From positions 1,982,001 to 2,046,000 of the forward strand of contig NC_083370.1 of NCBI RefSeq assembly GCF_029542785.1: a DNA stretch of 64,000 nucleotides, read 5' to 3'. Source of the stretch: Malassezia japonica (taxonomy: Eukaryota; Basidiomycota; Malasseziomycetes; Malasseziales; Malasseziaceae). The notes beneath the pieces were generated by a model. It searched no databases and was not told the origin of the DNA. It saw only the letters and a program-made list of their open reading frames with translations. Within the stretch, counting starts at the first letter, position 1, and the number at the start of each line of letters is the position of its first letter. Below, one piece after another: positions 3,503-55,502 of this stretch. Made by a program: the position numbers and the translations under genes.

Positions 3503-4244
3503 ATGTCTCGTGAGATTGAGCGGAACCAGGACGCGACATGCTACGTCGGCAACTTGGATGACCGCGTCACTGACGAGCTGATGTGGGAGCTGATGTACCA
3601 GGCCGGCCATGTCGTCCATGTGAATATGCCCAAAGACCGCGTGTCGCAGCTGCACCAGGGCTTTGCCTTTGCCGAATTCCATACCGAGACCGACGCACAG
3701 TACGCGTGTCTTATTCTGAATGGAATCAAGCTCTTTGGCAAGCCAATTCGTGTGAATATGGCGGCCGCCGATACCAAAGAGCCGATGGACATCGGTGCGA
3801 ACCTTTTCATCGGCAACCTCGACTCGAGCGTTGACGAACGCACCCTGTATGATACCTTTAATACCTTTGGCACGATCCTCGGCACTCCCAAGGTACGTTC
3901 TACTGCTCACCCAGATCATGCGCGACCCTGCGACGGGCGAATCAAAGAACTATGGATTTGTGTCGTTCGACTCGTTTGAGGCGTCCGACGCTGCGATCGA
4001 AGCCCTGAACAACCAGTACCTTGCCAACCGTCCGATGACAGTCGACTATGCCGAAAAGAAGGACGCGCGCCACGGCGAGAAGCACGGCACCGCCGCCGAG
4101 CGCCTCGTGGCGGCGCAAGCGCGCAAGAACCAAATCCTTGGTACACTGCACGAAGCCAACGGCTCCTATGCCACCCCGACGCCTGCATGGAGCTCCGAGG
4201 TGTTTGCTGCCCCCCCCGGCCCCGGCGCGTCGCCTGCCCCGTAG
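3503..4244 (+). CDS. HSH49: Splicing factor 3b subunit 4 (SF3B4/Hsh49)
   Basis: U2 snRNP SF3b subunit that contacts pre-mRNA beside the branch site; nuclear. 239 aa from two exons (3503-3892, 3915-4244) around a 22-nt intron at 3893-3914. Two RRMs are visible: RRM1 about residues 13-90 (RNP2 CYVGNL, RNP1 QGFAFAEF) and RRM2 about 100-180 (RNP2 LFIGNL, RNP1 KNYGFVSF). The intron falls between FGTILGTPK and [11 protein letters not shown], inside RRM2, so frame and homology fix it. The short low-complexity tail ends GPGASPAP. Start chosen at the first ATG giving the family N terminus [17 protein letters not shown]. Length is close to yeast Hsh49 and far shorter than the proline-rich animal SF3B4. 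Confidence 0.95.
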
Positions 4245-4430
4245 CCTGTAGTCCCCCCCCGAGATACCCCAGGCCACGTGGCATTTACTGTGCCAAGCAG
4301 GCCCGCCAACAAGCCACGCGACGGCGGTTGCGCGCTTGCCGTCCCCCGAGCCTATTGGCGCGGTGAGTGGAACAGGAACGATCCGACTCGCGTAACGAGC
4401 GTGTTGCGTCCAGCAGACGACGCATATACT

Positions 4431-6071
4431 ATGACAGGCCGCGTCCTCGTACTCCGCGTCCTTGTCCTGAGCGCTCTGGCACTGGCGGTGCTGCCGGGTC
4501 TGGTCCTGGGCTCTGTCGGCGACCAGTCGCCCAAGTTCCAGCGGTGCGTCGCGTCATGCAAGACGGATACATGCCGGAATCATAAGCCACTTCCCTTTAC
4601 GGACGACACAATTGTGCCGTCTGACCCTCTGCCGTGGTACCTGGTCCTGACCGGCTGGACGTGCGAGACGAACTGCGAGTATCACTGCACGCATCGCATC
4701 ACGAACGAGGCGCGCAAGCGCGTACAGGACCTACGGGAGCAGATGTACGACCGCCTGAACAGCGAGCAGGCTGAGCTGCGCAGACAGCACGACCGCTGGC
4801 GCAATCAGCTCGCACAGCAGGAAGCGGGCCAGAGCCTGGACCCTGCGTGCGACGGCGACGCATATTCCGACGCGGACGGCGAGTGTGTCCCCCTCATGCT
4901 CAAGCCGCCTGCGCCCCTGCTGTCCGAGAGCGAAGTGCGACGGCAGACCGAGGAGCGCATCCACGCCGAGCTCTACTTTATGCACCCCGTCGAGAAGCAG
5001 ACGGTGCAGTTCTTTGGCAAGTGGGCGCAGCTACGTGTGCTCGGCATGCAGGAGCCCTTTTCTGTGCTCTTTTCGCTCATGAACCTCGGCGTGCAGCTCT
5101 ATGCGTACAGGTACATTCTGCTCGACCTCCTGCCAGGGACCTTTCCGCTGAAATCGACCTACCTGCGCCATGCGGTGATTGCTAGTGTCGCGTGGGGCGC
5201 GAGTGCCATTTTCCATACTCGCGATCTGTGGTGGACGGAGCGCTTTGACTACTTTATGGCTGCAGCCGTGCTCCTGTCGGGCTTCTTTTTCACGCTGTGC
5301 CGTGTCATACACGCGAAACAAGGCAGCGTACTCTACCACCGCTTGATGGTCGGGTGCATCGGCGCGTGGGTGCTGCATGTGCTGTACCTCCTCTCGCACC
5401 GGCGCCTGGACTACTCGTACAACATGACTGCGTGCCTCACGGTCGGCGTGCTGCACAACCTCTTGTGGCTCCTTGCGGCGTTTGCGCCGCGCACCGTGCA
5501 CTCCTTTGCCGTGCTCCTCGGAGGCGACGCGCAGGTGGGTGCAGTGTCGGGTAACAGCAAGCACGACGAGCACGACCACGGCCACGCCCGGAACTGGCGG
5601 ACCATTTCGCCGTCGCAGCAGCAGCAGCTCGTCCTGCTCGTCCTGGTGATGTTTTGCGCGCCCGGCCTCGAGCTCTTCGACTTTCCGCCAATTTTGCGCC
5701 TGATTGACGCGCACGCGCTGTGGCACCTCAGCACGGTCCCGATCTCTTTGTACTGGTACTACTGGCTGGCGCAGGATGCGCGCGACTGCGTCGTGACCCA
5801 CAACTGGAAGCTCGACCAGCACGCGCACGTCACCGACGTGGACGACCTCCTCGCGCGGTCACACCACAGCAAGGTGCCGGACAGCGCGTCACACCTGCCG
5901 CTCACGGTCGAACCGGCTGCAGGTGCCTCGGAAGGATCCTCCGCCTCGCCAGCGACTCCTGTCCCGCTCGACGAGGCTTGGGGACGTGCACAGAGCCTGC
6001 TGGAGCAGTGGAGTGCGTGGGGCCTGGATGCTCTGCGTGCCTTGCGTGCGATGCTCATTACGCAATCGTGA
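4431..6071 (+). CDS. PER1: GPI-anchor lipid-remodelling protein Per1 (PGAP3 family)
   Basis: ER membrane protein that removes the sn-2 acyl chain of GPI anchors during lipid remodelling. 546 aa, intronless. An N-terminal signal peptide (LVLSALALAVLPGLVLGSVGD) is followed by the cysteine-rich luminal region (CVASCKTDTC, CETNCEYHC), then about seven membrane segments. Conserved family histidines are present in SAIFHTRD and HALWHLSTV, the presumed metal-dependent hydrolase residues of the CREST superfamily. It is longer than usual for the family (about 350 aa) because of a charged stretch around residues 95-190 and an extra loop and tail. The ATG at 4431 is chosen because it starts the signal peptide. 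With PIG-U nearby, two GPI-anchor genes sit within 9 kb. Confidence 0.92.
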   Translation: MTGRVLVLRVLVLSALALAVLPGLVLGSVGDQSPKFQRCVASCKTDTCRNHKPLPFTDDTIVPSDPLPWYLVLTGWTCETNCEYHCTHRITNEARKRVQDLREQMYDRLNSEQAELRRQHDRWRNQLAQQEAGQSLDPACDGDAYSDADGECVPLMLKPPAPLLSESEVRRQTEERIHAELYFMHPVEKQTVQFFGKWAQLRVLGMQEPFSVLFSLMNLGVQLYAYRYILLDLLPGTFPLKSTYLRHAVIASVAWGASAIFHTRDLWWTERFDYFMAAAVLLSGFFFTLCRVIHAKQGSVLYHRLMVGCIGAWVLHVLYLLSHRRLDYSYNMTACLTVGVLHNLLWLLAAFAPRTVHSFAVLLGGDAQVGAVSGNSKHDEHDHGHARNWRTISPSQQQQLVLLVLVMFCAPGLELFDFPPILRLIDAHALWHLSTVPISLYWYYWLAQDARDCVVTHNWKLDQHAHVTDVDDLLARSHHSKVPDSASHLPLTVEPAAGASEGSSASPATPVPLDEAWGRAQSLLEQWSAWGLDALRALRAMLITQS

Positions 6072-6101: not shown

Positions 6102-6934
6102 CTACATAAAGTCGTCGTCGTCGAGCGCTTCGCCGCCGTACGCCTCCAAGTCGACCCTGCATTAGCGAAAGTACGTACGTGTTCTTGGCACTCGACGTGC
6201 CCACCTGCTTGGGCTTGTTCGTGACCGGACGCTTGGCGTTGCCGCCGGTGCGCTTCAGCTCCTGGTCGGCCTTGACCTTGTTTTCGGCGAGCTCGCGCAG
6301 CTTGGTCGAGCCCTTGCGCATGTCCACATCACGCAGACCGTTCGTGGTGAGCAGCGCAAGGAAGTGAGGGAAGAAGTTTTTGTCAAAGCCCGCACGGCCG
6401 GCCTTGGGCTTGATAAAGCTCTCGTACACCTCGTCGGCGTATTTTTCCCATTCGGCCTTGGTCGAGGGCTGCGCGCCGGCGAGGCCGCTCGACGGCACGG
6501 GCACCGAGGGCTTCGCATCATCCTTCGGCTCCGAAAGGCTCGCGTCGCCGAGGAGCGCGGCGGCATTATCAAGGTCCGACTTCATCTCGGCCTCGCGCTC
6601 GCGACGGCGGCGCTCGGCCTCGTCCACGGGTCCGTCCCAGTCCTCGAGACCAGTCTCCTCGCCAGCGACACCACGGCGATTGACCTCGGCGCCCTTGCCG
6701 AGGTTCTTCTTCGCCTTGCCGGGCTTCACGACAGGCTTCGGCGCAGGCTTGGGGGCCGGCTTAGGCTTTTCTTCCTCCTCCGCATCCCAGTCATCCTGCG
6801 TCAGGGAGGCAACGTACCGGCTCCTCCTCCTTGTCCTCGTCTTCAAAGCGGCGGCGGCCCACAGCACGGGCCACAGGCTGCACCTCTTCGTCGTTTTCTG
6901 CGTAAGATGCGCGCTACCTACCCCAGTCGCTCAT
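6102..6934 (-). CDS. HCR1: Translation initiation factor eIF3 subunit j (Hcr1)
   Basis: eIF3-associated factor acting in start-codon selection, 40S binding and ribosome recycling; cytoplasmic. 254 aa in four exons: 6922-6934 (only 13 nt), 6818-6897, 6179-6795 and 6102-6156, with introns 6898-6921 (24 nt), 6796-6817 and 6157-6178 (22 nt each). The spliced N terminus MSDWENDEEVQPVA and the C terminus ALDDDDFM are family signatures and confirm both end exons. A KPAPKPAPKP run and a charged coiled region precede the conserved core (EWEKYADEVYESFIKP, FFPHFLALLTTNGLRDV). The 24-nt intron is a multiple of three, but its retention would bring an in-frame TAG at once. It faces Per1 tail to tail, 30 bases apart. 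Confidence 0.95.
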
Positions 6935-7037: not shown

Positions 7038-10000
7038 ATGCGCACGCTGTGCACGTCTGCGCGCCTCTTGGCATCGGCCAAGAAAGGAGGGGCGGAGCAT
7101 ACGTACCGCGACACGCTATGCCTGCCGCAGACAGCATTTAGCTTGCGCGCACGCGCGAGCGAACGCGAGCCCAAATTTCGGCACGCGACGACCACCGGCC
7201 TGTACCGCTGGCAGCGCGAGCACCTCGGCGAGGGAGAGCGTGAGTTTGTCTTGCACGATGGGCCGCCGTATGCAAACGGCAGCCTGCACATGGGTACGTC
7301 GCTCGGCTGACACAGGCCACGCACTGAACAAGATTCTCAAAGACTTTATTATCCGGTACCAAATCCTCCAAGGGCGCCGCGTACATTACATGCCGGGCTG
7401 GGACTGCCACGGCCTCCCGATAGAGCTCAAGGCAGTGGCCGAGGCCAAGCAGCACGGAATTCAAGAAATGACCTCGACGCAAATCCGCGAGGCCGCACGC
7501 AAGGTCGCCTACCGAGAAATGGCCGGCCAGCGCGACGCGTTCCAGGAGTTTGCCATCATGGCCGACTGGTCAGACGATTGCACCTACCGCACCATGGACT
7601 TTTCGTACGAAGTTACACAGCTCGAGCTGTTTGCACGCATGGTCGGCCAGGGGCTGATTGAGCAGCACTTTCGTCCGGTGTACTGGTCGCCCTCGTCACA
7701 CACGGCGCTGGCCGAGGCGGAAATTGAGTACGATGAGCGCCACCGCTCGCGCAGCGCCTATCTGGCATTTGGGCTGCAGCCTACAGATGCGCTGCGCGCC
7801 AAGCTGGGGACGGATGCGCCAGTTTCCCTTGCGGTGTGGACCACGACGCCGTGGTCGCTCCTCGGAAATATGGCGCTGGCTGTGTCTCCAGAGGCGCGCT
7901 ACTCGGTGGTGCGCACTCCCCAAAACCAGCACCTGATTGTCGCCAGCGAGCTGCGCGAAACGCTGCACGACATTCCGCTGGGCCTCGCCGTGAAAGGCGA
8001 GCGCGCACGCCTCGGCGACACGGAAGAAATCACGTCCTTTGACGGCACAGACCTCGTCGGGTCCACGTACACGTTTGGCCTAATGGCCCCGAACGAGACG
8101 CGCGAAATTCTCGCCGCGCCGTTTGTGACAACGACGTCGGGTACGGGTATCGTGCACATGGCCCCTGCGCACGGCCAGGAAGACTATGATCTTTGGCGCG
8201 ACTCGGGACGCCTAGCAAAGCAAGGCCTGGTGTCGCCTGTCGACGACCACGGCCGTTTTGTCCCGGAGCAAGGCCTCGGCACGACACCTGCGCTGCAGCA
8301 AGGCATTGCTCTACTCGAGGGCCAGGAAGCGCTGTATGGCGGCAACCAGGCCATTCTTGCGCTCCTGCACGAGCACGGTATGTTGCTTGGTGAGCAGCCG
8401 TACCGGCACAGCTACCCCATCGACTGGCGCACCAAGCAGCCGCTCCTGGTCCGTGCGACGGCGCAGTGGTTTGCCGACCTGTCGCATGTCGGTCCTGCTG
8501 CCCAGGCGGCGCTCGAGCCCGTGCAGTTTGTGCCGGCGACCGGCCGCAACCGCCTGCAGAGCCTTGTCGGCCGCCGCTCGGAGTGGTGCATTTCGCGGCA
8601 GCGTGCGTGGGGCGTACCGCTTCCCGTGGTGTACAATGCCGCGACGGGCGACGCGCTCCTTAGCGAGGAGAACGTGGAGCATATTCTTGCTGTCTTTCGT
8701 GAGCACGGCACGATGGACGTGTGGTGGACGCTGCCGCCCGAGACGTTTGTCGCACCCGCCTACCAAACGCCCGGCACGCAGTGGATGGTCAAGAAGGATA
8801 CGTTGGACGTGTGGTTCGACAGCGGATCCTCGTGGGCCGTCCTGCAAAATGCACTCGGCGCGACGCAGTGCTCGTCCGAACCGTGTGCCGACGTCTATCT
8901 AGAAGGCACGGACCAGCACCGCGGCTGGTTCCAGTCCTCGCTCTTGACGCGCAAATCCGCGTGCGGCGATGGGGCCGCGGCACCGTACGCCCACCTGCTC
9001 ACGCACGGCTTTGTCGTCGACGATGCGGGCCGCAAAATGTCCAAGTCGCTCGGCAACGTCGTGGTGCCGAGCACCTTTTTGCACGGCGACCAGTCGAAAG
9101 GCGTCGCTGCGCTTGGTACCGACGTGCTGCGCTGGTGGGCGGCCAAGACGGACTATACGCGCGACATTCCCATCAGCCCCCTGATCATGAAGCACGCGAG
9201 CGACGAGGTGCGCAAGCTGCGCAACACGGCGCGTTTCCTGCTTGCGAACCTTGGCGGCGTTGCGCCTGGCGTTGCGCTTCCTGCGGAGCGTACGCTGCTA
9301 GACCGGTACGTGCTGCATGAGCTGTACGTGCTGGACGAGGCATGCCGTGCGGCGTATGCCAAGTTTGACTTTGCCAAGGTCACGCGCCGCCTGAACGAGT
9401 TTGTCACTACCACGCTTTCGGCCCTGTACTTGGACGTGGCCAAAGATCCGCTGTATGCCGGCGGCGCGACGCGCCCTGCGATCCTTGCAGTGATGGACCG
9501 CATTCTGTATACCACGACCTGCATCCTTGCCCCCCTTCTCCCCCACCTCGCTGAGGACATTCACTGGTACCGTGCCGAGCACGCAGACGACCCCAAGGAA
9601 GGCGACGCGATCCCCTCCTTCTTCCAGCAGGCCTGGGCTCCGGCCGACGCCGCATGGCATGATGCGCCGCTCGCCGAGCGCATGCAGACGGTGCTGCAGC
9701 TGCGCTCAGACGTCTATGTGCTGCTGACCAAGTGCAAAGAGGAGCAGCTCTTAAAGTCTGCGCCGGAATGTGCTGTGGACCTCGTCGTGTCCCCTGAGAC
9801 GGCAGCGGTGCTCCACGAACACAACGGTACGTCGCTCGACTGACCCAGACCACCTCGCCGACCTGTTTATGGTCGCCTCGCTCGGTGTGCACACGGATCC
9901 TGCACAGGTCCCGACCGACGGCGCATGGCACCGCTCGAGTGCGACGGCGCACGGCCAAGTCTATATGCGCCCCTCGCCGCTGGAAAAGTGCCCGCGGTGC

Positions 10001-13609: not shown

Positions 13610-14989
13610 CGCTGGACTACGGTACGCCGCTGGCCCTCTTTGCCGGCGACCGGCGTGCGCTCCTTTTCCCAGCGCTCGTGCCCCCAAGCCCAGCCTGCGT
13701 CGAGGATCAGGCTGCCGATGCCGACTGCGTGCACGAGGTTGATGGCGTAGTAGAAATTGGCATTGGCCGAGCCCGCATAGAGCCACAGGTAGTGGAATGC
13801 AGGCATGAGGAGCGTCGTGTAGGCAAACAGCAAGCTCGTGACCATGGGATAGCGGAGGTCTGTGTGAGGCGCGGCACGTACAGTCCGAGAGGCGTGTCGA
13901 CGACAGGCTCCAGAGCGCCATAAAGAGCGCCGTATCGCCGACCGACGTGTAGTTTTGAAACAGGCATTGGATGCCGTACAGGATCGTGACCGCAAACAAA
14001 GGATCGCTCCTGTACTTGATCGTGACAGGGACCATATATGCCCACATGTGCAGGTTGACCACAAGCACAAAGAACGAGTGAAAGTGCTCAAACATTTGCA
14101 CGAAAAAGTACCACGCTAGGCCCGCCGACGGCGCGAGGTCGTCGAAAAGGAGGCGGCTGCCGTAAACGCTCCGCACAAACGTCCAGCTGCCGTCGCGCGA
14201 GAGGATCGCCGAGCCGACGAGGCCGGTGGCCGCAAACACGGCCATGCGCAAGAGTGTGCGGCGCATCCACTCGCTCCACGCATCGGCGCGGCGCATGCCA
14301 AACGTCGCTCGCCAGCGCCCGTGCTCGGCATAGGAATCCGCGCCGAGCAGCACCAGCGCGGGCGTAAGCATGAGCGGGTTCAGAAAGAGGAGCGTGCTCA
14401 GTGTATGCACGAGTGCGAGGCGGAGCGACGCGCCTGTGTCAGCCAAACGACGTACCGAGCACCGCAAAGAGCACAGAGAGTGCTACGAGCAAGACACGCA
14501 GCGTCGCCATCGACTTGGCGGCGCAGCACGCAATCGCGTACGGATTCATCCAGTAGCTGCGTTAGTCGTGCGACGTACCAAGCCGCAACGGCTGCGGGCG
14601 ACAGGTACTTGACGCGCCCCCCCGCGTTCTGCGCGAGACGCGACGCGACCGCCGCGAGCACAAGGCCGGTCGTGACGTCCATCGCGATCCACGTACATGC
14701 CGACCGCACCGGGTCGCTGATCAGCCTATCGAGCACCAAGAGCAGCGGCGAGTGGTGCACGGACAGCGAGGCCCACACCGCTTTCGGGTCCACCTGGAGT
14801 GTGTTGAGCAAAAACGACGCTTCGCGCACTGGGTGAGTCTTGCGACGTACGCAGCTCGATGCGGTCCATCGCCGTCGCGAGCTCGGACCGTGCGACGAGC
14901 GTCTCGCCCCACTCGCTTCCCCACGAGACGGCCACGCGCAGCGCGACGGCCACCGCGAGGCCCACGACTCCGCTAGCGCTCCTGAGCAT
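13606..14989 (-). CDS. GAB1: GPI transamidase subunit PIG-U (Gab1/Cdc91)
   Basis: Multi-pass ER subunit of the GPI transamidase that attaches GPI anchors to proteins. 431 aa from five exons (14851-14989, 14579-14828, 14456-14556, 13882-14433, 13606-13859) around four introns of exactly 22 nt (14829-14850, 14557-14578, 14434-14455, 13860-13881). Splicing restores the conserved CYWMNPYAIACCAAKS, the QMFEHFHSFF segment and AGSANANFYYAI, which together fix all junctions. The start begins a signal-anchor-like MLRSASGVVGLAVAVAL. A CACGTG lies two bases upstream of the ATG. Divergent from Mo25 with 48 bp between starts. Confidence 0.93.
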
Positions 14990-14991
14990 GG

Positions 14992-15037: not shown

Positions 15038-16216
15038 ATGAATTTCCTGTTCAAGGCGAAGCAGCGCACGCCGCATGAGCTTGCGCGCAGCATGCGCGAG
15101 GCGATCGCGCGCCTCGGTGTCGTGCAGCTCAGCAACGGGACGCTGCACCTGAGCGAGACGGTGGGTGCCGAGACGCGCCGCAAGGTCGGCGAGGAGCTCT
15201 ACCAGAGCATCCAGCAGGCGAAGCATATCCTCTATGGCGAGGCCGGCAACGAGCCCGTGCCTGAGCTTGTGGCGCAGTTTGCGCAGGAGACATACCAGGA
15301 CCGGCTGATGCAGTACCTGCTCGTGATCCTCCCCCGGCTCGAGTTCGAGGTACGTCGCGCGTCTTACCCAGGCACGCAAGGACGTCGTGCAGATCTTTAC
15401 CGTGCTGCTGCAGCGGAGCATTGGGACACGGCTTCCGACGGTCGAGTACATCTCTTCTAACCCGTCGATTGTCCTGCTTGCGCTGCGTGGCTACGAGGAC
15501 GCGGACATTGCGCTGAATACCGGCATGATCTTGCACGAGATGCTGCAGCACGAGGCGCTCGCCAAGATCCTGCTGTACTCGGAGGAGTACGTACCGCGAC
15601 TGACGCAGCTTCTACCGTTTCCCCAATTACATTGACACGAGCTCGTTTGGCGTGTCGTGCGACGCGTTTGCCAACTTTCGCGTACGTCGCTCTGCTCACC
15701 CAGGAAGCGCTCGTGCGGCACAAGAGCGTCGCGGCCGAGTACATTGCGCAGAACTACGAGCACGTACGTCCCTTTTCTCACTCAGTTCTTTGCCATGTAC
15801 AATCACCTGCTCGACTCGACGAGCTACGTTGCAAAGCGGCAGTCGCTCAAGCTTCTCGGCGAGATGCTTGTCGACCGTGCGCACTACCAGATGATGCTGC
15901 GGTACGTGGCCGACGACGGCAACCTCAAGCGCATCATGAACCTCTTGCGCGACCGCAGCAAGAACATCCAGCTCGAGGCGTTTCACGTGTTCAAGGTCTT
16001 TGTCGCGAACCCCAAGAAGTCGCCGGGGGTCGAGGCGATCCTCCAGCGCAACCGCGCACGGCTCCTCACCTTTTTGTCCGAGTTCCAGCGAGATCGCAGC
16101 GGTATGTCGCGAAGCTTACGCAGACGAGTCCTTCATCGACGAGCGCCAATATGTGATGCAAATCATTGCGTACGTCGCCCGGCTTACCCAGCACACTCCC
16201 GGCAAAAGGGCCATAG
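15038..16216 (+). CDS. HYM1: Mo25-family scaffold protein (Hym1)
   Basis: Armadillo-like scaffold activating GCK-family kinases in the RAM/MOR morphogenesis network. 348 aa from seven exons and six introns, all 22 nt: 15350-15371, 15587-15608, 15682-15703, 15764-15785, 16102-16123 and 16170-16191. Three of the exons are 25, 46 and 60 nt. Splicing restores LEFEARKDVVQIF, SEDFYRFPNYIDTSSFGVSCDAF, AAEYIAQNYEHFF and DESFIDERQYVMQ, which match the family well. Begins MNFLFKAKQRTP, the usual MxFLF start. The last exon adds only ATLPAKGP. Its stop is 7 bases from the gamma-adaptin stop on the other strand. Confidence 0.95.
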
Positions 16217-16223: not shown

Positions 16224-18745
16224 CTATGCACGTTGCGTCCAGTCGACCTGCTCGCGCACCGCTTCGCCGCTCTCCGTAGTAAACGCAAGGCGGATACGCA
16301 GGCGCAGCGGGCCCGTGATCGCGCCCGTCACCTGCATCGCCTGCGTCGCCTCGGCGCCGGGGCCGATGCTCGACGAGGTGATCGGGAACATTTGCAGCTT
16401 TTGGCTCTTGGGCACCGCCGCCTGGAACGACAGGCCCGAGATGGGCTGCTGCGCGGCGAAGCGCGCCTGGAGGTGCACCTCTTGTGCCGTGCTCTTGTCC
16501 ACGCGAAAGGCGACGCGCACGCCATGGCTATTGTATGCCTCTTGCTCGGGCGGCGTCGGGGCAGCCGGCGCACTCTCGCCAAAGATGTCGAGGTCCTGCA
16601 GGGCAGAGGTCGTCTGCGCGACGCTCGCGCTGGGCTGTGGCGTGGGCGCGTCAAACAGGCCGAGAATGTCGCTCGTAGACGACTTCTGCGGCGCAGCCGC
16701 GGCGGGCGGCGCATCGCCGCCACCAAAGATGTCGGCAAGCAGCTCGTGCGTGTTTTGCTTCGGCGCCGCGGCGGGCGGCGCAGCGTCGCCGCCCGCCAGA
16801 TCGAGCAGCGCGTCCTGGTCGGCGCGCGTCGAGCCGACCGGCTTCGTCTCGCTCACTGCGCCGAGGATCGTCTGGCGGATCTCGGGAAGCGGCATCGTCT
16901 CGAGGACGCCGGCGCGGATCTCGCCCCGCTGGAGGAGCGCGCGGTACTCGATCGCGCGCTTCTGAGACTCGACGTCGACCGCGTCGCTATACTGCGCAAA
17001 GAGGCTCACGATGCGCTCCTGCTGCACACGGTCGCCAATGCGCGTGTAAAACTTGGCGAGCGCCGTCAGGACGTACTCGCGCGCCACCTCGTCGGCGTAG
17101 ATCGAGTCGAGGAGCGAGGTGAGGAGGTCAACGACGCTCTTGGCGCTCACGTCGCGGCGCGTGCCGTCGTCGTCAAACGAGCCGAGCTCCAGGAGCGTCT
17201 CGCCAAACTCGCCGAGCACCCACACCGACGCGAGCGTCTGTGAGTGCTGCGAGAGGTCGTTGTGCAGCGCAGCGTACAGGCGCTGCGTGGTATAGCCCTG
17301 GAGCTCGGGCGTGTGGCACACGAGGCGGATGAACGAGCCGAGCACCTCGTCGCGGATGTAGTTGCCCGCGACGCGGAGCACATGCAGCATCGTGTCAATG
17401 TGCCAGCGCTTGTTCGGCGCAAAGCGCTCGGCGGCGACGCACATTTGCGTCGTGAGGTTCAGCTTGAACTCAACGTCTGCGACCTCGAGGAAGGAGAGGA
17501 GCTCGCGCATGAGCGCCGTGACGTTGCTCTCGTTGATCAGCGTGTAGGTCAGTTCGAGCGCGCGCCGCCGGATCGAGATGTCCGCGTCGCGGAGACACTC
17601 GAGGATCGTCGCACGGTGGCGCTGCACGGCGTTGGTGTCGATCGAGACGACCTTGTTCAACGTGTTAAGTGCCACGTAGCGGATATTGTTGTCGCGGTTG
17701 CCAAGGAACTTGCCGAGGATGTTGATCGCCATTACACGCAGGCCAGAATCCGCCTGGATCTCGAGAATGGTCAAGACACATTCGTAGAGAATCGCGTTGC
17801 CGACATTCTTGCTTGCCTCGGTGTTGGTAGCGACCTGCGCGAGGATGTCGTTGATCGCCTCGGACACCTCTGGGCTCTCGCGCCCAAGCACACGGAGGAA
17901 CCGCAGGATCTTGGTCTGCAGGAACGGATCGGTGATCCCTGCCACGTCGTGTTCCGGTGAAAAGGAGGTCGACAAGAGGTTCTTGAGCGTCGCGACCAGC
18001 GCCGACGTCGCGCGGCGGTAGTCGGAGATCGCCGCGGGCTCCGTCTCGCAGATCTGGATGGCGAGGCTCAGCGCACAGAGCTGCACGCCGTGGCTCTTGT
18101 CGCTGAGCATCTGGAGCGAGCGCTCGCGGAAGTGGTCGACGAGGTCCGGCACCTTGCGCACGATGCGCTTGGCACACAGCGCGGCCTTCTTGCGAATGTA
18201 CGAGTTGGCGCTGCCCATCAGCTTCTCGATCTCGTTGCAGAGGTCGCGGGACATTTCCTCCGAGGCGATGTTGGCAAAGGTGCACAACGCGAGGCCCACG
18301 ACAAACATGCTCGAGTGGTTCATGTCGCTGCGTTAGCCTAGAAAACGTACTTCTTCAGCCCATTGGTCACGAGCATCAGCACCTGGGCGTTCTCGTCCAG
18401 CAAGAGCATGATGCCAAGGTAGCCGAGGCGCTTGTCCGTGAAGCGCGGCGACGCCACGAGCTTCAGGCACTCCATCTGCCCAAAGTGCGCGGGGTAGCCG
18501 AGCATGTGGATGTACAACAGCTTCGACAGGTTGTTGTACCGCAAAAACGCATCGTCGTCCTTGAACGAGGTGCGGATCGCAGCGCTCTCTTTCTGCAGCA
18601 GCGACCGCTCGTCCGCGAGGGTTTTGCACGCACGCACGCCTTTGATCAAAGCACGCAGATTGTACAGGCCTGCGCTGGCCATCAGCCCGCCGAGGCGGGG
18701 ATCCAGCGCCGCGACCTGCTGCTGCTTCTGGAAAAAGGCGGCCAT
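16224..18745 (-). CDS. APL4: AP-1 clathrin adaptor gamma subunit (gamma-adaptin)
   Basis: Large subunit of the AP-1 complex for clathrin coats at the trans-Golgi and endosomes. 832 aa; exons 18351-18745 and 16224-18327 with a 23-nt intron at 18328-18350 that joins TNGLKN to [15 protein letters not shown], the conserved adaptin motif. The helical trunk runs to about residue 560. It is followed by an Ala/Pro hinge with DIFGG and LDIFGES clathrin/accessory-type motifs, then the ear domain (about 700-832, ending [10 protein letters not shown]). [10 protein letters not shown] at 18745 is the first ATG in frame; a CACGTG lies 43 bases upstream. Confidence 0.95.
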
Positions 18746-18793: not shown

Positions 18794-18794
18794 A

Positions 18795-33301: not shown

Positions 33302-34248
33302 TTAGGCGCGGTCGGACGGATGACCGGGCGCCTGGGCCTCGTCGGTGGGCAGCGCAATGTACGGCTCCGCACTGGGTTAGTAGAGTGACATACCTAGCAT
33401 TCACGAGGGATTCCTCGCCCGTGTACAAAAAAGCGTCGTAGAGAAAGACGCCCAGGACACCGCCCGCAATCGGTGCGACGCCAGGGCCAAAGAACCAGTA
33501 CGCGTAGTCGTGCGTCCAAATCTCTGAACCGTAGCCAAGGAATGTGAGCGCGATGCGCGGGCCCAGGTCGCGGGCCGGGTTCAGCGCATAGCCCGTGTTG
33601 AAACCGAGCGCCGAGCCGATCGCTAGCACGGCAAGGAACAAGCCGATCGGGAGCGAGCCCTGCGACAGGGCCCAGTTGCCCTTGTCGCCAAACGCCATCA
33701 CGAGGAAAAGGAGCGTAGCGGTGGCGATGATCTCGGTCAAGTATGCGGTCACGAGCGAGATCAGCGGACTGGGGAACGTAAAGAACAGACCCGCTGTGGC
33801 GTGCGGACCAAGCACCGAGTGCCTTGTGCCGTCTTCAAACAGCGCAATGCTATCGTGGTACAGGTAGTAGACGACGAAGGCACCAAACGTGCAGCCCAGC
33901 ACCTGTGCGGCAATGTAGCTCGCAATCTTGTGGCGGGGAAAGCGGCGCCAGGCGGCCAGCGCGACCGTTACGGCGGGGTTCAGGTGAGCGCCCGAGATAC
34001 CACCGGCGACCCACGCACCCAGCGCGACGCCTGCCGCCCATGCGATGCGGCACGAGAGGTAGGACCCGAACGCCTCGTCGATTTCGTTCACCATGTAATG
34101 CAGCCGCACCTGGCACTCGACGCCGGCGCCGAACAAAATGATCATAAATGAGCCCCAGAATTCGCTGTGTGAGCATGGCTACCTACGCAAACTCGTCGCG
34201 CCACTCATTGCGGATCTTCGCCCAGCGGTTAGGGAATTGGCTCGGCAT
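33302..34248 (-). CDS. Aquaglyceroporin (MIP family)
   Basis: Six-helix channel for glycerol and/or water. 300 aa; exons 34187-34248, 33394-34164 and 33302-33371 with 22-nt introns at 34165-34186 and 33372-33393. Splicing gives MPSQFPNRWAKIRNEWRDEFAEFWGSFMIILFG, the usual soluble N terminus running into helix 1. The two NPA boxes are GAHLNPAVTVA (near residue 83) and GYALNPARDLGPR (near 216); the Asp after the second NPA is the glycerol-facilitator hallmark. The tail is short, unlike yeast Fps1, so a closed-gate regulatory extension is absent. Stops 15 bases from the Gcn2 stop on the other strand. Confidence 0.93.
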
Positions 34249-41108: not shown

Positions 41109-43632
41109 TTACACTGCGCCCCGAAACAAATAGGCCAATTCTTCCGCGGAAAGCCGTGACGCCTGCGCGGGGCTGCTGCCATCGAGGGCCGTGCGTGCGA
41201 GCTCGCGCTTCTTTTGCTGGAGCGCCAAAATACGCTCTTCGACGGTGCCCGAAATGGAAAGCTTGTAAATATACACGTCCTTGGCCTGCCCGAGGCGGTG
41301 CGCTCGGTCAAAAGCCTGCTCCTCAATCTGGGGATTCCACCATAGGTCGCATAGAATCACGCGGTTGCAGCAGGTCAGGTTCAGGCCCGTGCTGCCGGCC
41401 TTGAACGAAATAAGGATGACCTTGGTTGCCTCATGCGTGCGGATCTTGGTCAGGGCAAGCTCGCGTGCAGTCCGCGTCATTTTGCCGTCGTCTGGGTCAG
41501 CTGGGAAACGTACACCGCACAAACTCGATGCCCGTCTTGCTGAGGGCGCCTTCGAGCAGGTCCAAGAAAGAGGTAAACTGGCTAAAGATGATGGTCTTGT
41601 CGTGCTTGTCCTGCGCCCGGAACTCTTCGAGCAGCGCCATGGTCTTGGCAAGCTTGGTCGACGTGCGCTCCTTCCACACGATACCTCGCTTGGCCTCCTC
41701 AGCGGCTTGCGCTTGACACCCCTCACAAAGAACCGGTTCGTAGGTCTTGGGCAGCACGACCTGGCACCGCTCACAGTGTCGCGCCTGGACGGAGAGGCCG
41801 GCAAGGAGGTCGGCAAGCTCATCGTCCGGATCGGCACCCACGTCTTGTGCGGCGGCCTTGGGCGCCTCGCGCGCATCTGTTTGGGGCGCGCTCGACGTCG
41901 AGGTAATCAGCGCAGGGTGGTTGCATGCTGCGTGAGCAAGGCGACATACCTTGGCGCAGACGGAGCAGCATGACCAACATGCCCATCGCGTCCATTTTGC
42001 CATTCTTGTCCAGCACCTTTTTCATGCGGTTCTCAATGTCGCGGTAAAACTCGCGCTCATCGTCCGACGCAAACTCGGTCGTGACCACATCAACCGTGCG
42101 CCCAGGAAGCTGCAAGAGGGGCTTGCCGTCGTACTGTGCGTCTTTGGTGCGGCGCAGCATGATCGTACGCAGCACAGCACAAAGCCGCTTCATTCCGTGA
42201 CTGTGGTGCGCGGTATTGCTGGGTAAGCCAGAGCACATACTTGTTCTTTAGGGGCTCGTCAATCATCCGCCGGAAATGACTATAATCGTCAAACGGCGCC
42301 GCACGGAGAAAGTGCATCAGGCTAAAGAGCTCCATCACATTGTTCTGGAGCGGCGTGCCGGTCAAGCACCATCGTGCGGCAGCGTTCAGCGAGAGCTCAA
42401 AGCATGCCTTGCTGCTCTTGGCGCGGTAGTTTTTAATGTTTTGCGCCTCGTCTGTGTTAGTCTGGCCACGTACCGAGCACGATGCGCAGCCACTTGGCCC
42501 GAAACAGGGGCGCAGTGGCCTGCTTCTTGGCCGCAGGCGGCGCGCGCTTGAGCGGCGTGTCCGAGTCGGACGACGCGAGATCGTCTTCACTGCTATCCTC
42601 GTCCGAGTCGAGTATGATGGGTTTCTTTTTCGAGCCTTTTGACTCGATCTGGCCCAGGCTCGCCATGTACTGCGCATGCTCATTGGCAGCTGTCGCATAT
42701 GTTGTCACGACCACGTCGGCCTTCTGTAAAACTTCGGGCGTCTTGGCGCGGCCGGGGCCATGATGCACATAGACCTTGAGCTTGTGTCCGGTCTTTTCGT
42801 TCGCTTCCTTGTGCCACTGCTCGACGACAGCGAGGGGCGCAATGATGAGCGTCGTCTTGGTATTCGAAACAAACACCTGGCGCGCACGTTTTGCCAGCAT
42901 ATTGTCGACGTCGTCAGCAAACACATCGCCGTCTGGGTCCGCATCCAGGCCCGGTGCAGCGAGCTTCGTCGGCTTGCTCGTGCTTTGAAAGGGCTTTTTC
43001 CGTACGTCGGTGTCTTCGTGAAAGAGCTTATCGTTCAGATTGCCTTTTCCATCGCTCCCCTTGATCTGGTCGAGGTGACGGTGCGACATGATCAGCGCGA
43101 GCATCTGAACAGTCTTGCCCAGACCCATATCGTCAGCGAGAATGCCGCCCTTGATATCGCCACGCTCGCGCTGGCGCATCCACTCGACACCCTGGACTTG
43201 GTGGGGCAGCAGGCGACACAGCAGACCCGGGATATGCGCGCGGTCCATGTCCACATGGTCAACGACCGACACGAGGCCTGAGAGCATTTTCTGCAGCTGC
43301 TGTTCGCGTTCCTTTGCCGAGATATTGGTGCGCTCGATCGGCGTGTCGGCACGCGGTGTGCCTCCATGGCGGTCTGGGGTGCGCATACCCTTCCCCATGG
43401 GCGTGCCCAAGCCCCGGCGCGCCGACCACGGACTAAACGGCTCTGGCGTCGCTGGCGTGTATCCCAGCGGCATGGTTCGTACTTTCGGTTCCGTGCGCCA
43501 CGTGCCTCGTGACGGTTGTGGTGAGTCGGTGCGCTGAGGCGTATGAGGGCTATTTGGCTCTTGCCGCGCACCGGGCGTGGGACTGGCCAAGCCAAGCTGT
43601 TGGGCCAGCAGCCGCTGGCGCATCGCCTCCAT
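41109..43632 (-). CDS. SNF2-family DNA-dependent ATPase (Rad5/Rad16/Uls1 group)
   Basis: DNA translocase/remodeller, 811 aa from five exons (42474-43632, 42241-42451, 41950-42218, 41514-41927, 41109-41491) with four 22-nt introns: 42452-42473, 42219-42240, 41928-41949 and 41492-41513. Motifs: [14 protein letters not shown] (Walker A, about 166), [11 protein letters not shown] (motif II, restored by splicing), [37 protein letters not shown] and [11 protein letters not shown]. Between the two helicase lobes is a CERC...CEGC zinc-ribbon-like pair rather than a clear RING finger, so ubiquitin-ligase activity is doubtful. The substrate process (repair, SUMO-targeted removal or other) is not decidable. 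Confidence 0.9.
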
Positions 43633-43656: not shown

Positions 43657-45059
43657 TTATGAGCTACGGGGCAGATGGTTGCTGCGGTCTGCTGCGGTCC
43701 GTGCGCGCTTCGTGCGCGCAGGCGATGTGCATGCATCCAGCTCGTGACTGGGCTCACTCTTGATTTGCGGACTAGGCTGCGTCGTTGTATCATCGAGTGG
43801 CAACGTGGTGCGCAGGGCTCCTTTGGTGTCCTCTTCGTGCTTCCAGGGTGTGTATCCTTCTTCTTTGAGAGAATCGCTTCCGGATTCAGTAGGCATGCTC
43901 GATCCTTCCACGCATACCTCGTCTTTGATTTCGGGCTTGGCATGCGTGGTTTCGGGCTCGTAGGCCGAAAAGGAGCGCAGGTCTGCGTAAAACAACACCT
44001 GCGTGAGTAGAGCAACGTACCGAGTGCGCCCATCCTGCGCGGGCGCCCCAAATCGCACGCAGCCTGTCGGCGACGTCTTCATAGCGCTTGGAGCGGATGC
44101 CGTACCACCGCTCGGCAAATTGGAATACGTGGCGGTCGACGGGAATGCTCTCGGCCTGGTCGAGCGACATGAGTAGGATACAGTCGGCGACTTTGGGGCC
44201 GATGCCCGCGAACTGCGTGAGCGCCTCGCGGGCCTCGTAGTAGGGGAGCGAGCGCAGGGACAAGAGGTAGGCATAGACGGCCTCGTCGACTTTTTCGTCG
44301 CTCGCGCCGTCGGGCAGCGCCGCACGCGCTTGGTCGCAGAGCATCTGCGCCGTCTTGGCAATATACTTGGCCCGGTACCCAAACCCAAGCGTACGGAGCT
44401 TGCCCTCGACCTCGGGCGCTGCAAGGCACGTCGGCGGGGGAAAGGGGTGGTAAGCTAGTGTGCACTTTTCGTCCACAGGCTCCTCCAGCTCCGAGACGTC
44501 AAGCGTGTGGCACAGCCGCGTGCCGGGGGGATAAGTCTCGACATGCTGGAGCGGCGAAAAGTGCTCGCACAGCTTGTGCACCATCTGGCTGATGCGGGGA
44601 ATATTGTTATTGGAGCTGCAGATAAAGCTGGGTGAGTTAGACGACGTACGCGCACATGCACTCCCACGGATCCTGCCGCAGGATGTTCGCGCCGGCGAAC
44701 CGCTTTGCGTGCTTGGCAAAGACTGGATCTTTTTCGCACCACTCCGCGTACCATTCGGACGTCGGTGCCTCCAGACTCAGATAGTCTTGTAGCCAAATGG
44801 CCGTCGGCTCGCGCGGCGAGTACCCTTCTGGAAAGACGGAGCGGTAGTACAGGCAATTCGACGCACGGTCATGCTGCAAAAAGACGACGCGGTCGCGCAG
44901 GCACAAGGACCATTCGAGGCGCCGAGGTTCGTACTCGGTCGCTGGAAGTAGCACCTTGCGCCACCGAAACGCCTGGCCACACTGGTGGGCGATTGTCAGC
45001 GGCAGCACGATCGGGCACGCTTGGGCCAGCCGCAGGACTTGGTAGCCTTTCGGCGCCAT
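43657..45059 (-). CDS. OGG1: 8-oxoguanine DNA glycosylase/lyase (Ogg1)
   Basis: Base-excision repair enzyme removing 8-oxoguanine. 452 aa; exons 44650-45059, 44021-44627 and 43657-43998 with 22-nt introns at 44628-44649 and 43999-44020. The splice joining WECMCA to FICSSNNNIPRI restores a family signature. In the helix-hairpin-helix (QFAGIGPKVADCILLMSLDQ) the catalytic lysine is K282 and the conserved aspartate D301 in IPVDRH, 19 apart as in human K249/D268. A C-terminal extension of about 120 residues is acidic then basic (TKRARTAA), perhaps nuclear targeting. Divergent from Gle1 with 38 bp between starts. Confidence 0.95.
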
Positions 45060-45103: not shown

Positions 45104-46832
45104 ACCGCGGCCGGGCGTGTGCCGCGCCCTGACCGTGTCGACGCGCCACGAATGGCGGCCCTCAAACCGCGGCGGCCAACAGGTCGCTACGTGTACGAGT
45201 CGTCTTCGGACGAAGACAGCGACGCGGACCCTGTGACATGGCGCACCGCGCCGCTTTCCCCTCCGGTGCCCGGACTGGAGAGCAGCGACGAAGAGGAGGA
45301 TGCGCACGGGCACGACCTCTCTGACGTGCGCCTTGCTAATGAGCTCGATCCGTGGGACCGATGGGAGGCTGCGTGCCAACGTAAAGCATGGGTACGTCGC
45401 TTGACTAACGCAGCGCCCTGCCTGGCAACGAGGATCAACACCGATGCGCGGCGCGACGCCCCACCGCTCCGGCGGCGACCAGAGCGTGCATGAGGTCACG
45501 GATCTCCTCTCCCATTTCCAGCTGCAGCAGAAAGAGGTGGAACGCAAAGAGCGCGAGGCGTTTGACCAGCGCAACGCGAGTCTCTGGGAAGGCATCGAGG
45601 AAGCGATCCGCGGCGCCGAGAAGCGTGCTGCACACGAGGCCGAGCAGCTTGCCAACGCGCGGCGCCGTCAAGAGCAGGCCGAGGCAGAAGCAAAGAAAGC
45701 GCGCACGGCCGAGCTGCGTCGGATCGAAGAGGAGAAAAAGGCCGCCGAGGAAGAAAAGAAGCGCACCGCCGCCAAAGAGGCCGAGCTCGCGGCGCTGGCG
45801 CAGAAGGAAGGCGTGTACAATACGATGCGCGGCGGCGAGCGTGTCGGTCCTGTTGCTGCGAAAGAAATGAAGCACTGGCAGGCCGAGATGAAGACGATCA
45901 AGGACGAAATTCTCCCAGCGATCGCTGCCAACCCCGCATGGCGCAAGCAGTGCTTTGCGGCGAAGCGCGCCATCACTCCCAAGATTGGGCAGCTGACAAA
46001 CGCGCGCGACGAGATTGCGCGCATCACCAAGGCGATTGCTGCCGTGCTGCACGAGGCGCAGCAAGCGCCGGAAGAAGGCGCACGACGCTACCTGTACTAC
46101 TGGACACTCAACCACCTTGCCAAGTGCCTTATCCGGCAGGCCGAACAGGAGGTCGCCGCCCGCCAGGAAACCGCATACCCCCTCGCCCGCACGGTCCTGG
46201 GCCTGCTCCTCCTTGGCCATCGCGCGTTGGGCGACGTGCTAATGGCGCGCTTGGTCAAAAAGTGTCCCTATGTTCTCGGCACGCTGCCCGAGCGCGACGG
46301 CGTGGACGAGCGCGCCTACCGCAAGATGCTCGGCTTCAAGATCGACGCCGAAGAGACCGCGCACATGTACACGTCGCGAATGAGCGGCATTTGTGCGTTG
46401 TACTTTGCCTGTCTCCAGACGTCGCTCTCGTCGGTCGCCGCGTGCAGCGGCCTGGCGCCGGGTTGCGACCTGAAACAGGCGGCCGAGCATGTGCCGAGCG
46501 TCTTTCAGCCGAGCCGTCTGTGGACGTGGCAGGTGCGTGCGACGACGCCGCCGTATGCACAACAGCCCATGTTGCCTACTCTCTGGTGTACCTTTTTGGA
46601 GGTAGCAGGCACCGCGACCGGCGAGCGGTACGGCCGCCAGGCGCACAAGCTATGGGCCATGGTGCTGGAGCACGGTGTGCTACAGAACAAGCTCGGACCG
46701 GCCGACGTCCAGGGCGACGCACAGCGCGATGCGCTGCGCGCTGCGCGTGTACGCCTCCAGCTCATCCTCGAGTCCTGGCAAAAAACCAAATCGCTGGCCG
46801 AACATGCTTCGCCAGGGCGCGAAATGGAGTAG
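45098..46832 (+). CDS. GLE1: mRNA export factor Gle1
   Basis: Nuclear-pore-associated activator of the DEAD-box ATPase Dbp5, with inositol hexakisphosphate. 570 aa; exons 45098-45391 and 45414-46832 with a 22-nt intron at 45392-45413. The acidic Ser-rich N terminus is followed by a long coiled coil (about 125-225, ERKEREAFDQRN to the KKAAEEEKKR run) and the GLE1 helical domain (ARRYLYYWTLNHLAKCLIRQAEQEV, GDVLMARLVKKCPYVLG, MSGICALYFACLQT, HKLWAMVLEHG). The start shares a mirror-image context with Ogg1. Its stop is 8 bases from the next minus-strand stop. Confidence 0.94.
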
Positions 46833-53873: not shown

Positions 53874-54764
53874 AAGCGGATGTTAGTCAACGAAGTGAAA
53901 TGCGCCGACTGCTTAGAGAATCTGTGCTAGGCGCAATGAAGCACGCTGCGATAGTAGCAAAGCGATGCGCTCAATGGCACCAACAGAAGCACGACTTTCA
54001 GCGATTCGTACGCAGAAACACTGCAAAGAACAGGTCAAGGTCCAGCCTTAACGGTGGTCAGTGAAGAGAATTGAGCTGCTTGTCGCGCACCGCGCACGGA
54101 GCCAACACTAGAATATGTTCCAATACGCCGCAACAGGTGCCCGTACATCTTTTGTCGTAGTCGAAATACGAACGACTCCATTATTGTGCGCCCCGATTAG
54201 CAGGTGCGGCCGCCGATTCGCGGAATATCATGGGCGTAGATTATCTATGGACACAAATACACACAAAGGCTTGACACGCGCGGAAGATGTTGAGGCAGAC
54301 CCTACGCGCGTGTGGAGGGCTCCAGGACGCCCTTGGGCTCACGGCTAGAGAGGCAGACGAGTAGGCTATGGCGCGCAGGTCGTAGTAATCAAGACGAGAA
54401 AAAGGAAAGATGGTTCGAACCTATGTTACGGAATCTACGTACGAGCTGTGGCAATGTAGTTGAAGCCAGGTTCTAGAGTCCATCGCAGCAAAAGTTGCGA
54501 GACTCGTAGCTATTACTGGTCGTGTGGCCTACGACTACTACAAGCCCTAAACCGACAAGTGCTGAGGAAATGCTTTGCTGAACAGGGCGTAGTTCTACTG
54601 CTTTCTAGCAGCGTCTGCCTGGTCAATCCATGATATTCGCATAAGCGCGCCTCTTGAGCGCATACCGACCTAATAGGCTTCATGTATCTCCGCCAACACG
54701 TCGCGTGGCCCTCCGCTTGCAACGAGTTTGGACGTGCGCGTCGGGATCGTGACGCACCGATACA
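53874..54764. promoter_or_regulatory. Divergent intergenic region, Axl2-like/Bet3
   Basis: About 890 bases with lower GC than its neighbours, between two divergent genes. I found no conserved reading frame, tRNA or repeat. A GGTTCGAACC at 54412-54421 looks like a tRNA B box but lacks the rest of a tRNA. Probably regulatory sequence for the Axl2-like gene. Confidence 0.4.
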
Positions 54765-55502
54765 ATGGCGTCCGCAAAGCAATACAAGACGCTGGGCGAG
54801 GACCTATGGAGACAAAACACAGACAAGGTCGTACGTGCGGCTTACTGACACAGAATTCCGAGCTGTTTACCCTCACTTATGGCGCGCTCGTCGTCCAGCT
54901 AATCAAAGACTATGAAGATTACGAACAGGTGAACATTCAACTGGAGAAAATGTAGGTCACTGGCCTGGACTGACGCACAGGGGCTACAATATTGGGACAC
55001 GCCTCATCGAAGACTTCCTTGCGCGGAGTAACTTGCCGCGGTGCACGGATATGCGGGACGTCGCAGAAGCTGTCAGCAAGGTCGGTTTCAAGATGTTCCT
55101 CAACATTGTCCCGACAGTCACCTTTGGTCAAGGTGGCTCAACGGCCCCCGGCCAAAGTGCAGAGGCCAACCCCGGTACGCCTCAGGCGAGCGCGCCGCCG
55201 CCCGCATCCGATGCTGCTGCCCCTGGCTCCAAAGAGTTCTCGCTCATCCTGGCGGAGAACCCTCTGGCGGAGTTTGTTGAGCTTCCTCCCGAGGTTCTTC
55301 GTGGTGGGCTGTGGTACTCGAATGTGTTGGCCGGTGTGCTGCGTGGTGCCCTAGAGATGGTACGTTCTGATTCTTACCCCAGGTCCAAATCCAGACGCAA
55401 GTGACGTTTGAGTCCGACACACTGCGCGGCGATGAAACGACCGAGCTCCGCGTGAGGCTCATCCGCTACTTGGATGAGGAGGCTCCTCCCGCTGACGACT
55501 AG
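54765..55502 (+). CDS. BET3: TRAPP complex subunit Bet3 (TRAPPC3)
   Basis: Core TRAPP subunit, part of the Rab (Ypt1) exchange factor tethering ER-to-Golgi vesicles. 220 aa; exons 54765-54830, 54854-54951, 54981-55359 and 55383-55502 with introns of 23, 29 and 23 nt, all longer than the window's 22-nt norm. Splicing restores LGEDLWRQNTDKV, NSELFTLTYGALVVQL, QLEKMGYNIGTRLIEDFLAR and GALEMVQIQTQVTF. An Ala/Pro/Gly-rich insert (about 125-155) enlarges the protein beyond the usual 180-190 aa. The conserved palmitoyl-pocket cysteine of animal TRAPPC3 lies near the exon 3 start in other species; I did not identify it with certainty here. Confidence 0.94.

Follow-up and report, generated by a model that had tools for sequence, protein, structure and literature searches.

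Human splicing needs a minimum distance between donor and branch point, published as 46 nt (PMC11291888) or, from the geometry of the B complex, ~52 nt (PMC6692369). In Mikrocytos mackini, 217 of 224 introns are reported as 16 nt long and the rest as 17 nt, all with a conserved sequence, for which the authors proposed a functional minimum combined with a deletion bias (PMC10245619). In chlorarachniophyte nucleomorphs, splicing efficiency reportedly falls for introns of 21–27 nt (PMC10245619; PMC5014332). Malassezia genes have “very short introns” according to a review (PMC7426719). For M. restricta, the annotation set the minimum intron length to 20, later to 15 (PMC6473144), and an average of 37.2 and a median of 30 nt are given (PMC9241646). 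M. globosa introns averaged 79 nt in one annotation (PMC4634964). The passages on Malassezia introns in this cited literature describe no 22-nt mode, no wall at 22 nt and no fixed branch position, and none of them concerns M. japonica introns.

Malassezia japonica is a skin yeast. In the window, the 64-kb stretch of its genome analyzed here, we found 35 sites of the strict 22-nt motif GTRNGT-N7-CTNAY-N-YAG, 16 on the forward and 19 on the reverse strand. The donor block was mostly GTACGT and the acceptor block CTNAY-N-CAG. Allowing other spacers, for total lengths of 18–30 nt, gave besides these only two sites of 23 nt and one of 24 nt, and 20 first-order Markov sequences used as a control had a mean of 0.0 strict matches at 22 nt. 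The class of exactly 22-nt introns proposed by the initial annotation extends through the 8.43-Mb genome, with 3,112 strict matches (1,579 + 1,533) vs 9 (8 + 1) for the reversed pattern. A purpose-built gene finder added window introns of 23 nt (55360..55382), 29 nt (54952..54980) and 27 nt (57157..57183). By itself it recognized 33 window introns, 27 of them 22 nt long, and missed the six-intron HYM1 gene. The combined list had 41 introns: 35 of 22 nt, three of 23 nt, and one each of 24, 27 and 29 nt. From an earlier count of 43 introns, 36 of them 22 nt, we recovered 35 of the 22-mers, but not the 36th, nor a 43-nt intron; three of the 41 introns fall past position 54853, where that count ended. 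The motif agrees with the proposed branch A at base 17. It leaves three bases between the branch A and the AG, and no polypyrimidine tract was present there, nor is there space for one, as had been claimed.

On the forward strand, a strict-motif 22-nt intron (3893..3914) lies in an SF3B4/HSH49-type gene (3503–4244), whose spliced protein scored 273.7 bits to SF3B4. Motif, gene finder and frame agreed on 22-nt introns in an isoleucyl-tRNA synthetase-like gene (7038–10066; introns 7294..7315 and 9827..9848), an AMP-ligase-like gene (23627–25353; 23686..23707 and 23792..23813), a GCN2-like kinase gene (28195–33286; 32369..32390), these three named from sequence, and a gene at 25518–26407 (26199..26220 and 26284..26305). 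HYM1/MO25 had six 22-nt introns. The first five (15350..15371, 15587..15608, 15682..15703, 15764..15785 and 16102..16123) were supported by the strict motif, the alignment and the NCBI protein. The sixth (16170..16191), a few codons upstream of the stop, had the motif and is spliced in the NCBI protein, despite a frame score of −12.4. The intron at 36214..36235 (22 nt; motif, frame) connects the FG-repeat and coiled-coil parts of a single gene. In GLE1 (45098–46832), motif and gene finder gave a 22-nt intron at 45392..45413, and the spliced protein resembled M. brasiliensis GLE1 with 97% covered. BET3 (54765–55502) had a first intron of 23 nt (54831..54853; motif, gene finder, alignment); its second and third are the added 29-nt and 23-nt introns (gene finder, alignment).

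On the reverse strand, the eIF3j gene (6102–6934) had two introns of 22 nt (6157..6178 and 6796..6817) and one of 24 nt (6898..6921), each supported by motif, gene finder and the Pfam eIF3_subunit domain, which covers the entire spliced protein. Motif, gene finder and frame supported 22-nt introns in a membrane-protein gene within 13606–15451 (13860..13881, 14434..14455, 14557..14578 and 14829..14850), a transporter-like gene (18795–20788; 18884..18905), an SH3-domain gene (27706..27727 and 27808..27829), an aquaporin-family gene (33302–34248; 33372..33393) and an OGG1-type gene (43657–45059; 43999..44020). Both motif and gene finder also gave further 22-nt introns: a putative second one in the transporter-like gene (19210..19231; frame score −1.5), one in the aquaporin-family gene (34165..34186), where Pfam MIP crosses the junction, one separating OGG_N from the HhH-GPD domain in the OGG1-type gene (44628..44649), and four in an SNF2-type helicase gene (41109–43473; 41492..41513, 41928..41949, 42219..42240 and 42452..42473), where domains cross the junctions. 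Directly upstream of the SH3-domain gene stop, the frame test (−31.6) and the gene finder were against a 22-nt intron at 26435..26456 that has the motif; splicing extends the SH3_1 match from profile position 38 to 47 (of 48). Longer introns were found in an adaptin-like gene (16224–18745; 23 nt, 18328..18350; motif, gene finder) and an aldehyde-dehydrogenase-like gene (55573–57252; the 27-nt intron, gene finder), both named from sequence.

Except at 16170, 26435 and 19210, the coding frame called for splicing at the strict window sites (32 of 35). At 124 of 146 tested sites the reading frame was retained after removal of 22 nt; at control offsets the unspliced frame ran on instead (91/143, 92/145, 100/145 and 97/145). 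Alignments of the conserved genes HYM1/MO25, BET3 and SF3B4 kept their frames after intron removal. Splicing the six HYM1/MO25 introns gave a protein identical to a stretch within an NCBI M. japonica record, and the HYM1 gene model is correct there; the spliced BET3 query gave no M. japonica record among the 120 matches listed. We also ran a free-length gene finder on 114 kb chosen without regard to motif hits. There, 22-nt introns made up 12 of 46 with GT..AG ends vs 3/41, 0/39 and 3/50 with three decoy pairs, and 8 of 43 with CT..AC, the antisense of GT..AG. Frame retention and homology thus bear out the initial view that these introns are real. Judged by reading frame, by homology and by a single NCBI protein, the 22-mers behave as U2-type spliceosomal introns.

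The length distribution was one-sided. Lengths of 15–21 nt gave five motif matches vs five for the reversed pattern, i.e., the control level, with 0/5 at 21 nt, and none of 61 matches with a GTAAGT donor was shorter than 22 nt. Above the edge there were 227 introns of 23 nt (vs 1 reversed), followed by a tail that reached 34 nt and more. Among the first 100 matches listed, 81 were 22 nt and 19 longer; extrapolating from these 19 would give 9 at 22 nt, which puts the spike at roughly ninefold the tail-based expectation. The combinations of spacer and A-to-G distance were (7,5) in 149 cases, (8,5) in 13 and (7,6) in 11, with one (7,5) in the reversed sequence. Both the donor-to-branch spacing, which is 16 nt in the 22-nt introns, and the branch-to-AG spacing had a lower edge. 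A single length below ~25 nt dominates, its lower edge is sharp and, by motif, the branch position is fixed. The splicing machinery of M. japonica appears, from these motif counts, to be at a sharp lower length limit, with most introns 22 nt long and hardly any shorter.

The 22-nt introns had an inner spacer consensus (G at +8, C at +9) lacking in the 23-nt introns; G at +8 was found in 61 of 105 vs 21 of 100, respectively (p 5e-8). Spacer pairs with at most one mismatch numbered 131 in the 22-nt introns, vs 69 predicted by independent columns, and none of 100 first-order shuffles matched this similarity. Under a second-order null the excess shrank, and the value was reached in 7/100 and 1/100 shuffles. 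The consensus could partly reflect differences in base composition.

From the spliceosome, we detected U2 snRNA (123.1 bits), with the branch-pairing segment GTAGTA, U6 snRNA (80.8 bits), with the donor-pairing segment ACAGAGA, and a U2AF65-type protein. The donor +4 C stands unpaired opposite an A. No match to the Rfam U1 model was found, and the controls likewise gave none. The N-termini of Isy1 and Cwc25 align to known structures from residue 1, without the diverged active-site parts proposed for Stentor only. The comparison covered U2, U6, U2AF65, Isy1 and Cwc25; by sequence, these five components look ordinary.

The most probable reading (roughly 80%) is that M. japonica introns are U2-type spliceosomal introns sitting at a hard minimum length. 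Each consists of two fixed blocks, donor and acceptor, separated by a spacer of at least 7 nt; base 17 is therefore the predicted branch A, with the final G five bases further on. Deletions would shorten an intron up to the point where donor-bound U1 or U6 collides with branch-bound U2; below 16 nt from donor to branch the spliceosome could no longer assemble, and shorter alleles would therefore be lost. Since a wall with steady deletion would not by itself yield a ninefold spike, a preference for exactly 22 nt has to be assumed in addition, for which the inner consensus particular to the 22-nt introns is a further reason. Their spacer may be co-adapted to fit the tightest geometry. Such introns would be too small for the long helices that U6 forms with the 5′SS and U2 with the branch, and for the 15-nm gap seen in the human B complex; the early complexes of M. 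japonica should therefore be more compact. It is plausible that donor and branch are bound as one unit. We suggest only tentatively that the early complexes handle them as one uninterrupted 16-nt unit and lack the extended U6/5′SS and U2/branch helices known from the B complex, and that the exact-22-nt introns are a separate class, with their own spacer element and a +4C donor, recognized best in the tightest register despite ordinary-looking snRNA segments and branching factors.

A rigid donor-branch complex that measures exactly 16 nt, disfavoring both shorter and longer introns, would make 22 nt an optimum and not an edge. The spike and the spacer consensus restricted to 22-nt introns point in this direction, as does the roughly twofold higher splicing frequency reported for 16-nt over 17-nt introns in Mikrocytos (PMC10245619), but the 23-nt introns and the upward tail have no mirror below 22 nt, which makes this reading rather doubtful. 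The measuring constraint proposed in the initial annotation holds insofar as the geometry is constrained, but not as a symmetric ruler. Likewise, “near the physical limit for a U2-type spliceosome” was too strong in general, given introns of 15–16 nt in Stentor (PMC9505925) and 16–17 nt in Mikrocytos (PMC10245619); 22 nt looks like the limit within M. japonica.

Spread of a recent template or introner-like element, with length inherited and not selected, would explain the excess of spacer similarity over independent columns and first-order shuffles. This origin is unlikely: the excess is small under the second-order null, upstream exons end in AG in just 14%, and a sharp lower edge would not be predicted. 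Both hallmarks of introner-like elements, near-identical copies (145 of 146 intron sequences were distinct) and target-site duplications (of 1–4 bases), were lacking. Selection through translation, where an unspliced 22-mer (3n+1) shifts the frame and the mRNA is destroyed, fits a length not divisible by three. It is very improbable, given introns of 23 and 24 nt, no in-frame stop bias at branch base 16 or donor +4 in the relevant phases (p 0.71 and 0.76), and even phases (42, 43 and 38 of 123). The case for splicing rests on DNA and protein sequence, which would leave room for sequencing artefacts, or for insertions handled by frameshifting or non-spliceosomal RNA splicing. We regard these as extremely improbable, since the donor, branch and acceptor motif is fixed on both strands and far exceeds its reversed control, the coding frame resumes after the 22-mers, the public HYM1 protein is spliced at six of six sites, and the genome has U2 and U6.

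If M. japonica introns are at a hard minimum, the closeness of donor- and branch-bound snRNPs would become a single-nucleotide threshold, testable in a yeast. Human splicing fails below ~46 nt from donor to branch, whereas M. japonica, by motif count, appears to splice ~3,100 times at 16 nt and hardly below. The ordinary Isy1 and Cwc25 argue against a general requirement for the altered forms suggested in connection with the tiny Stentor introns. Any gene finder whose minimum intron length exceeds 22 nt will disrupt many M. japonica genes.

The donor-branch spacing of M. japonica is about one third of the published human need (46–52 nt). Published intron lengths vary within the genus, with M. 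globosa averaging 79 nt in one annotation (PMC4634964). Mikrocytos shares the near-invariant length and conserved intron sequence (PMC10245619), but in this intracellular symbiont the spliceosome is strongly reduced and introns number only 224, whereas M. japonica is a yeast with ~3,100 that retains U2AF65-, Isy1- and Cwc25-type proteins. Stentor coeruleus is similar in its near-uniform 15–16 nt, a branch A nearly always at position 10 or 11, and conserved U2/U6 pairing segments; its introns are shorter, without a strong branch consensus, and conservation is reportedly lost in the N-terminus of Isy1 and in the N-terminal plug of Cwc25 (PMC9505925), whereas in M. japonica both proteins align from residue 1. 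Chlorarachniophyte nucleomorph introns have a similarly narrow length range of 18–21 nt (PMC10245619; PMC5014332), but their host is a relict algal nucleus. The type B introns of Trichomonas vaginalis are also short and uniform (~25 nt, shortest 23), but there are only twenty-four, mostly T-filled (PMC12316389). Short Malassezia introns and uniform introns of 15–21 nt in other eukaryotes are thus already published; new here is the shape of the distribution, with a wall below 22 nt, a spike at 22 nt and an upward tail.

The motif GTRNGT-N7-CTNAY-N-YAG, which spans 22 nt and places the branch A at base 17, had 35 sites in the window by pattern search. The window is positions 1982001–2046000 of contig C1 (2,114,519 bases). 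The initial annotation had counted 43 introns of all lengths taken together; our own list has 41. Genome-wide (8,433,779 bases on nine contigs; an earlier M. japonica draft is given as 8.3 Mb with 4,715 genes in the available part of PMC4634964), the motif occurred at 1,579 + 1,533 sites, and the reversed-pattern control at 8 + 1. A tRNA scan and an Rfam scan of the window had no matches.

With GTACGT and CTNAY-N-CAG fixed and the length free between 15 and 45 nt, the genome gave 2,551 matches (reversed 22). Lengths of 15–21 nt had five (17, 17, 18, 19 and 20 nt), as many as the reversed pattern, and 23 nt had 227 (reversed 1). The lengths were tallied for the first 100 listed of the 2,551, all from the + strand of one contig and limited to GTACGT..CAG introns with a branch-to-G distance of 5: 81 were 22 nt long, lengths of 23–28 nt had 6, 3, 4, 3, 1 and 1, and one was 34 nt. 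Extrapolated from the 19 introns longer than 22 nt, a geometric fit gave 9 at 22 nt, where 81 were seen. The counts and the tail fit therefore show a sharp lower wall below 22 nt and, in addition, a specific excess at exactly that length. With the same acceptor pattern, GTAAGT donors had 61 matches (reversed 8) vs the 2,551 for GTACGT, the fourth donor base being mostly C; the GTAAGT matches respected the same wall.

Protein comparisons support excision of these segments. Removing six 22-nt introns from the HYM1/MO25 gene (15350–16191, + strand) gave a protein that aligned with MO25-family structures over residues 14–320 (322.5 bits) with one single-residue gap, and that was contained letter for letter, 100% identical over its full length, in 'Hym1p [Malassezia japonica]'. 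Spliced SF3B4 scored 273.7 bits. Pfam domains crossed the intron junctions in the spliced eIF3j, aquaporin-type and SNF2-type proteins, and one junction of an OGG1-type protein fell between its two domains. In an SH3 gene, the SH3_1 profile was reached to position 47 of 48 if spliced, and to 38 if the intron was retained. The GLE1 model (45098–46832), built with a 22-nt intron, had 570 aa and matched M. brasiliensis GLE1 over 97%; the sole 100% match among the matches listed was a 462-aa frame without the N-terminal part. BET3 (54765–55502) carried introns of 23, 29 and 23 nt, none of 22 nt, and their removal gave 201.7 bits against Bet3. Because no M. japonica record was among the 120 matches listed for the spliced protein, BET3 may be absent from the public M. 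japonica gene set, or wrongly spliced in it.

The reading frame was followed in a 264-kb DNA set, at 146 sites with enough flank. The coding frame ran on across the excised 22 nt at 124 of them; at four offsets taken as controls, it was the unspliced frame that ran on, at 91/143, 92/145, 100/145 and 97/145. Two 22-nt introns lie a few codons ahead of the stop (16170–16191, + strand; 26435–26456, − strand), where the frame test fails. The set included 20 fetched stretches of 10 kb, 15 of them picked for already listed motif matches, so local proportions are biased to 22 nt; whole-genome pattern counts were used for the totals, for the wall and for the number of 23-nt introns. Our own gene finder, knowing GT..AG only and allowing lengths of 10 to 150, placed 126 introns in the 264 kb, 35 of 22 nt, 6 of 23 nt and 8 shorter than 22 nt. 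Beyond 22 and 23 nt no length occurred more than five times, and these scattered lengths are partly noise. With a donor bonus, it placed 178 introns; 114 of these measured up to 45 nt and had a branch motif close to their end, and of the 114, 80 were 22 nt, 18 were 23 nt and none was shorter. In 114 kb unselected for matches, GT..AG put 12 of 46 introns at 22 nt, three decoy end pairs 3/41, 0/39 and 3/50, and CT..AC, the antisense of GT..AG, 8/43.

The lower edge was present in both internal spacings, the spacer from donor hexamer to branch motif (D) and the distance from branch A to last G (E). The (D,E) counts were 149 for (7,5), 13 for (8,5), 11 for (7,6) and 5 for (9,5); shorter spacings were rare (D=6/E=5, 1; D=7/E=4, 2; D=7/E=3, 1), and reversed sequence gave 1 at (7,5). 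Longer introns stretch on the donor side: in 10 of 11 gene-finder introns of 27–36 nt with a branch motif, the last motif lay 5–7 bases from the end.

Composition differed between the two main length classes. We compared the spacers of 105 GTACGT..CAG introns of 22 nt with those of 100 listed of the 227 introns of 23 nt. The former had G at +8 at 0.58 and C at +9 at 0.66; in the latter G was at 0.21 at +8 (Fisher p 5e-8) and, counted in the branch register, at 0.14 (p 3e-11). T at A-5 was higher in 23-nt introns (0.47 vs 0.32, p 0.045), and in either class 73% had a purine at A-4, in line with pairing to U2. The likeness among 22-nt spacers exceeded independent and first-order column predictions, and was only marginal over a second-order null. 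Of the 146 sites, 79% had C at donor +4 and 1% had A, exon -1 was G in 46%, and the remaining flanking positions carried little information. On a separate stretch, L026, longer introns of ~34–50 nt with GTAAGT or GTGAGT donors seemed, by eye, to be present at ~280–420 (−) and 2440–2490 (+), in genes that we take to resemble those for TCTP and ribosomal protein uL1. A different class of donor may serve genes with high expression.

Several explanations for the fixed length and the unusual donor were rejected. Stop codons as the cause of the length were rejected, phase bias being absent. A donor-branch hairpin was rejected: pairing was not in excess at any of seven position pairs, and three folded 22-mers did no better than shuffles. 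Recent spread of a template was not supported. An altered U6 or U2 offsetting the +4C donor was rejected, as both snRNAs were ordinary, U6 carrying ACAGAGA and U2 GTAGTA. The Rfam U1 model had no match, and its controls were silent as well. Loss of METTL16 was rejected, since a PF05971 gene exists (142.4 bits), presumably METTL16, a name given partly from sequence features of its frame. Donor +4 is mostly C despite a METTL16-type gene and an ordinary U6 ACAGAGA; in the available part of a study tying METTL16 to this position, nearly all the switches described are A/U ones, and they are in Saccharomycotina (PMC10581693). Loss of U2AF65 was likewise rejected. Its homologue had U2AF 65 kDa as top structure matches, and its best single piece scored 224.4 bits, short of the 310.3 at which TIGR01642 sets its cut-off; another piece lies close by. 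This protein (genome contig C9, 362333–363724) is retained though the introns are too tight for a pyrimidine tract.

In human B complexes, according to the text available, the U6/5'SS helix takes 17 nt and the U2/branch helix 14 nt, which together with a gap of 15 nm comes to ~52 nt (PMC6692369), and the smallest productive donor-branch distance given in the accessible part of PMC11291888 is 46 nt. Helices of that length cannot both form here, because 16 nt are available. The most economical reading is that in M. japonica both helices would be short and the complexes compact; deletions may have pushed most introns onto the 22-nt wall, and introns of exactly 22 nt may be tuned to it. The available part of a report on Stentor describes the N-terminus of Isy1 and the N-terminal plug of Cwc25 as non-conserved (PMC9505925), whereas in M. 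japonica both proteins align to known structures from residue 1, the Cwc25 alignment having biased composition past the N-terminus. Short Malassezia introns and uniform tiny introns elsewhere are already published. In the literature searched, with partial coverage, no report on Malassezia gave a mode or a wall at 22 nt; within that coverage, the wall, the fixed branch position and the spacer specific to the 22-nt class had not been described for M. japonica, and this case has unusually clean statistics.
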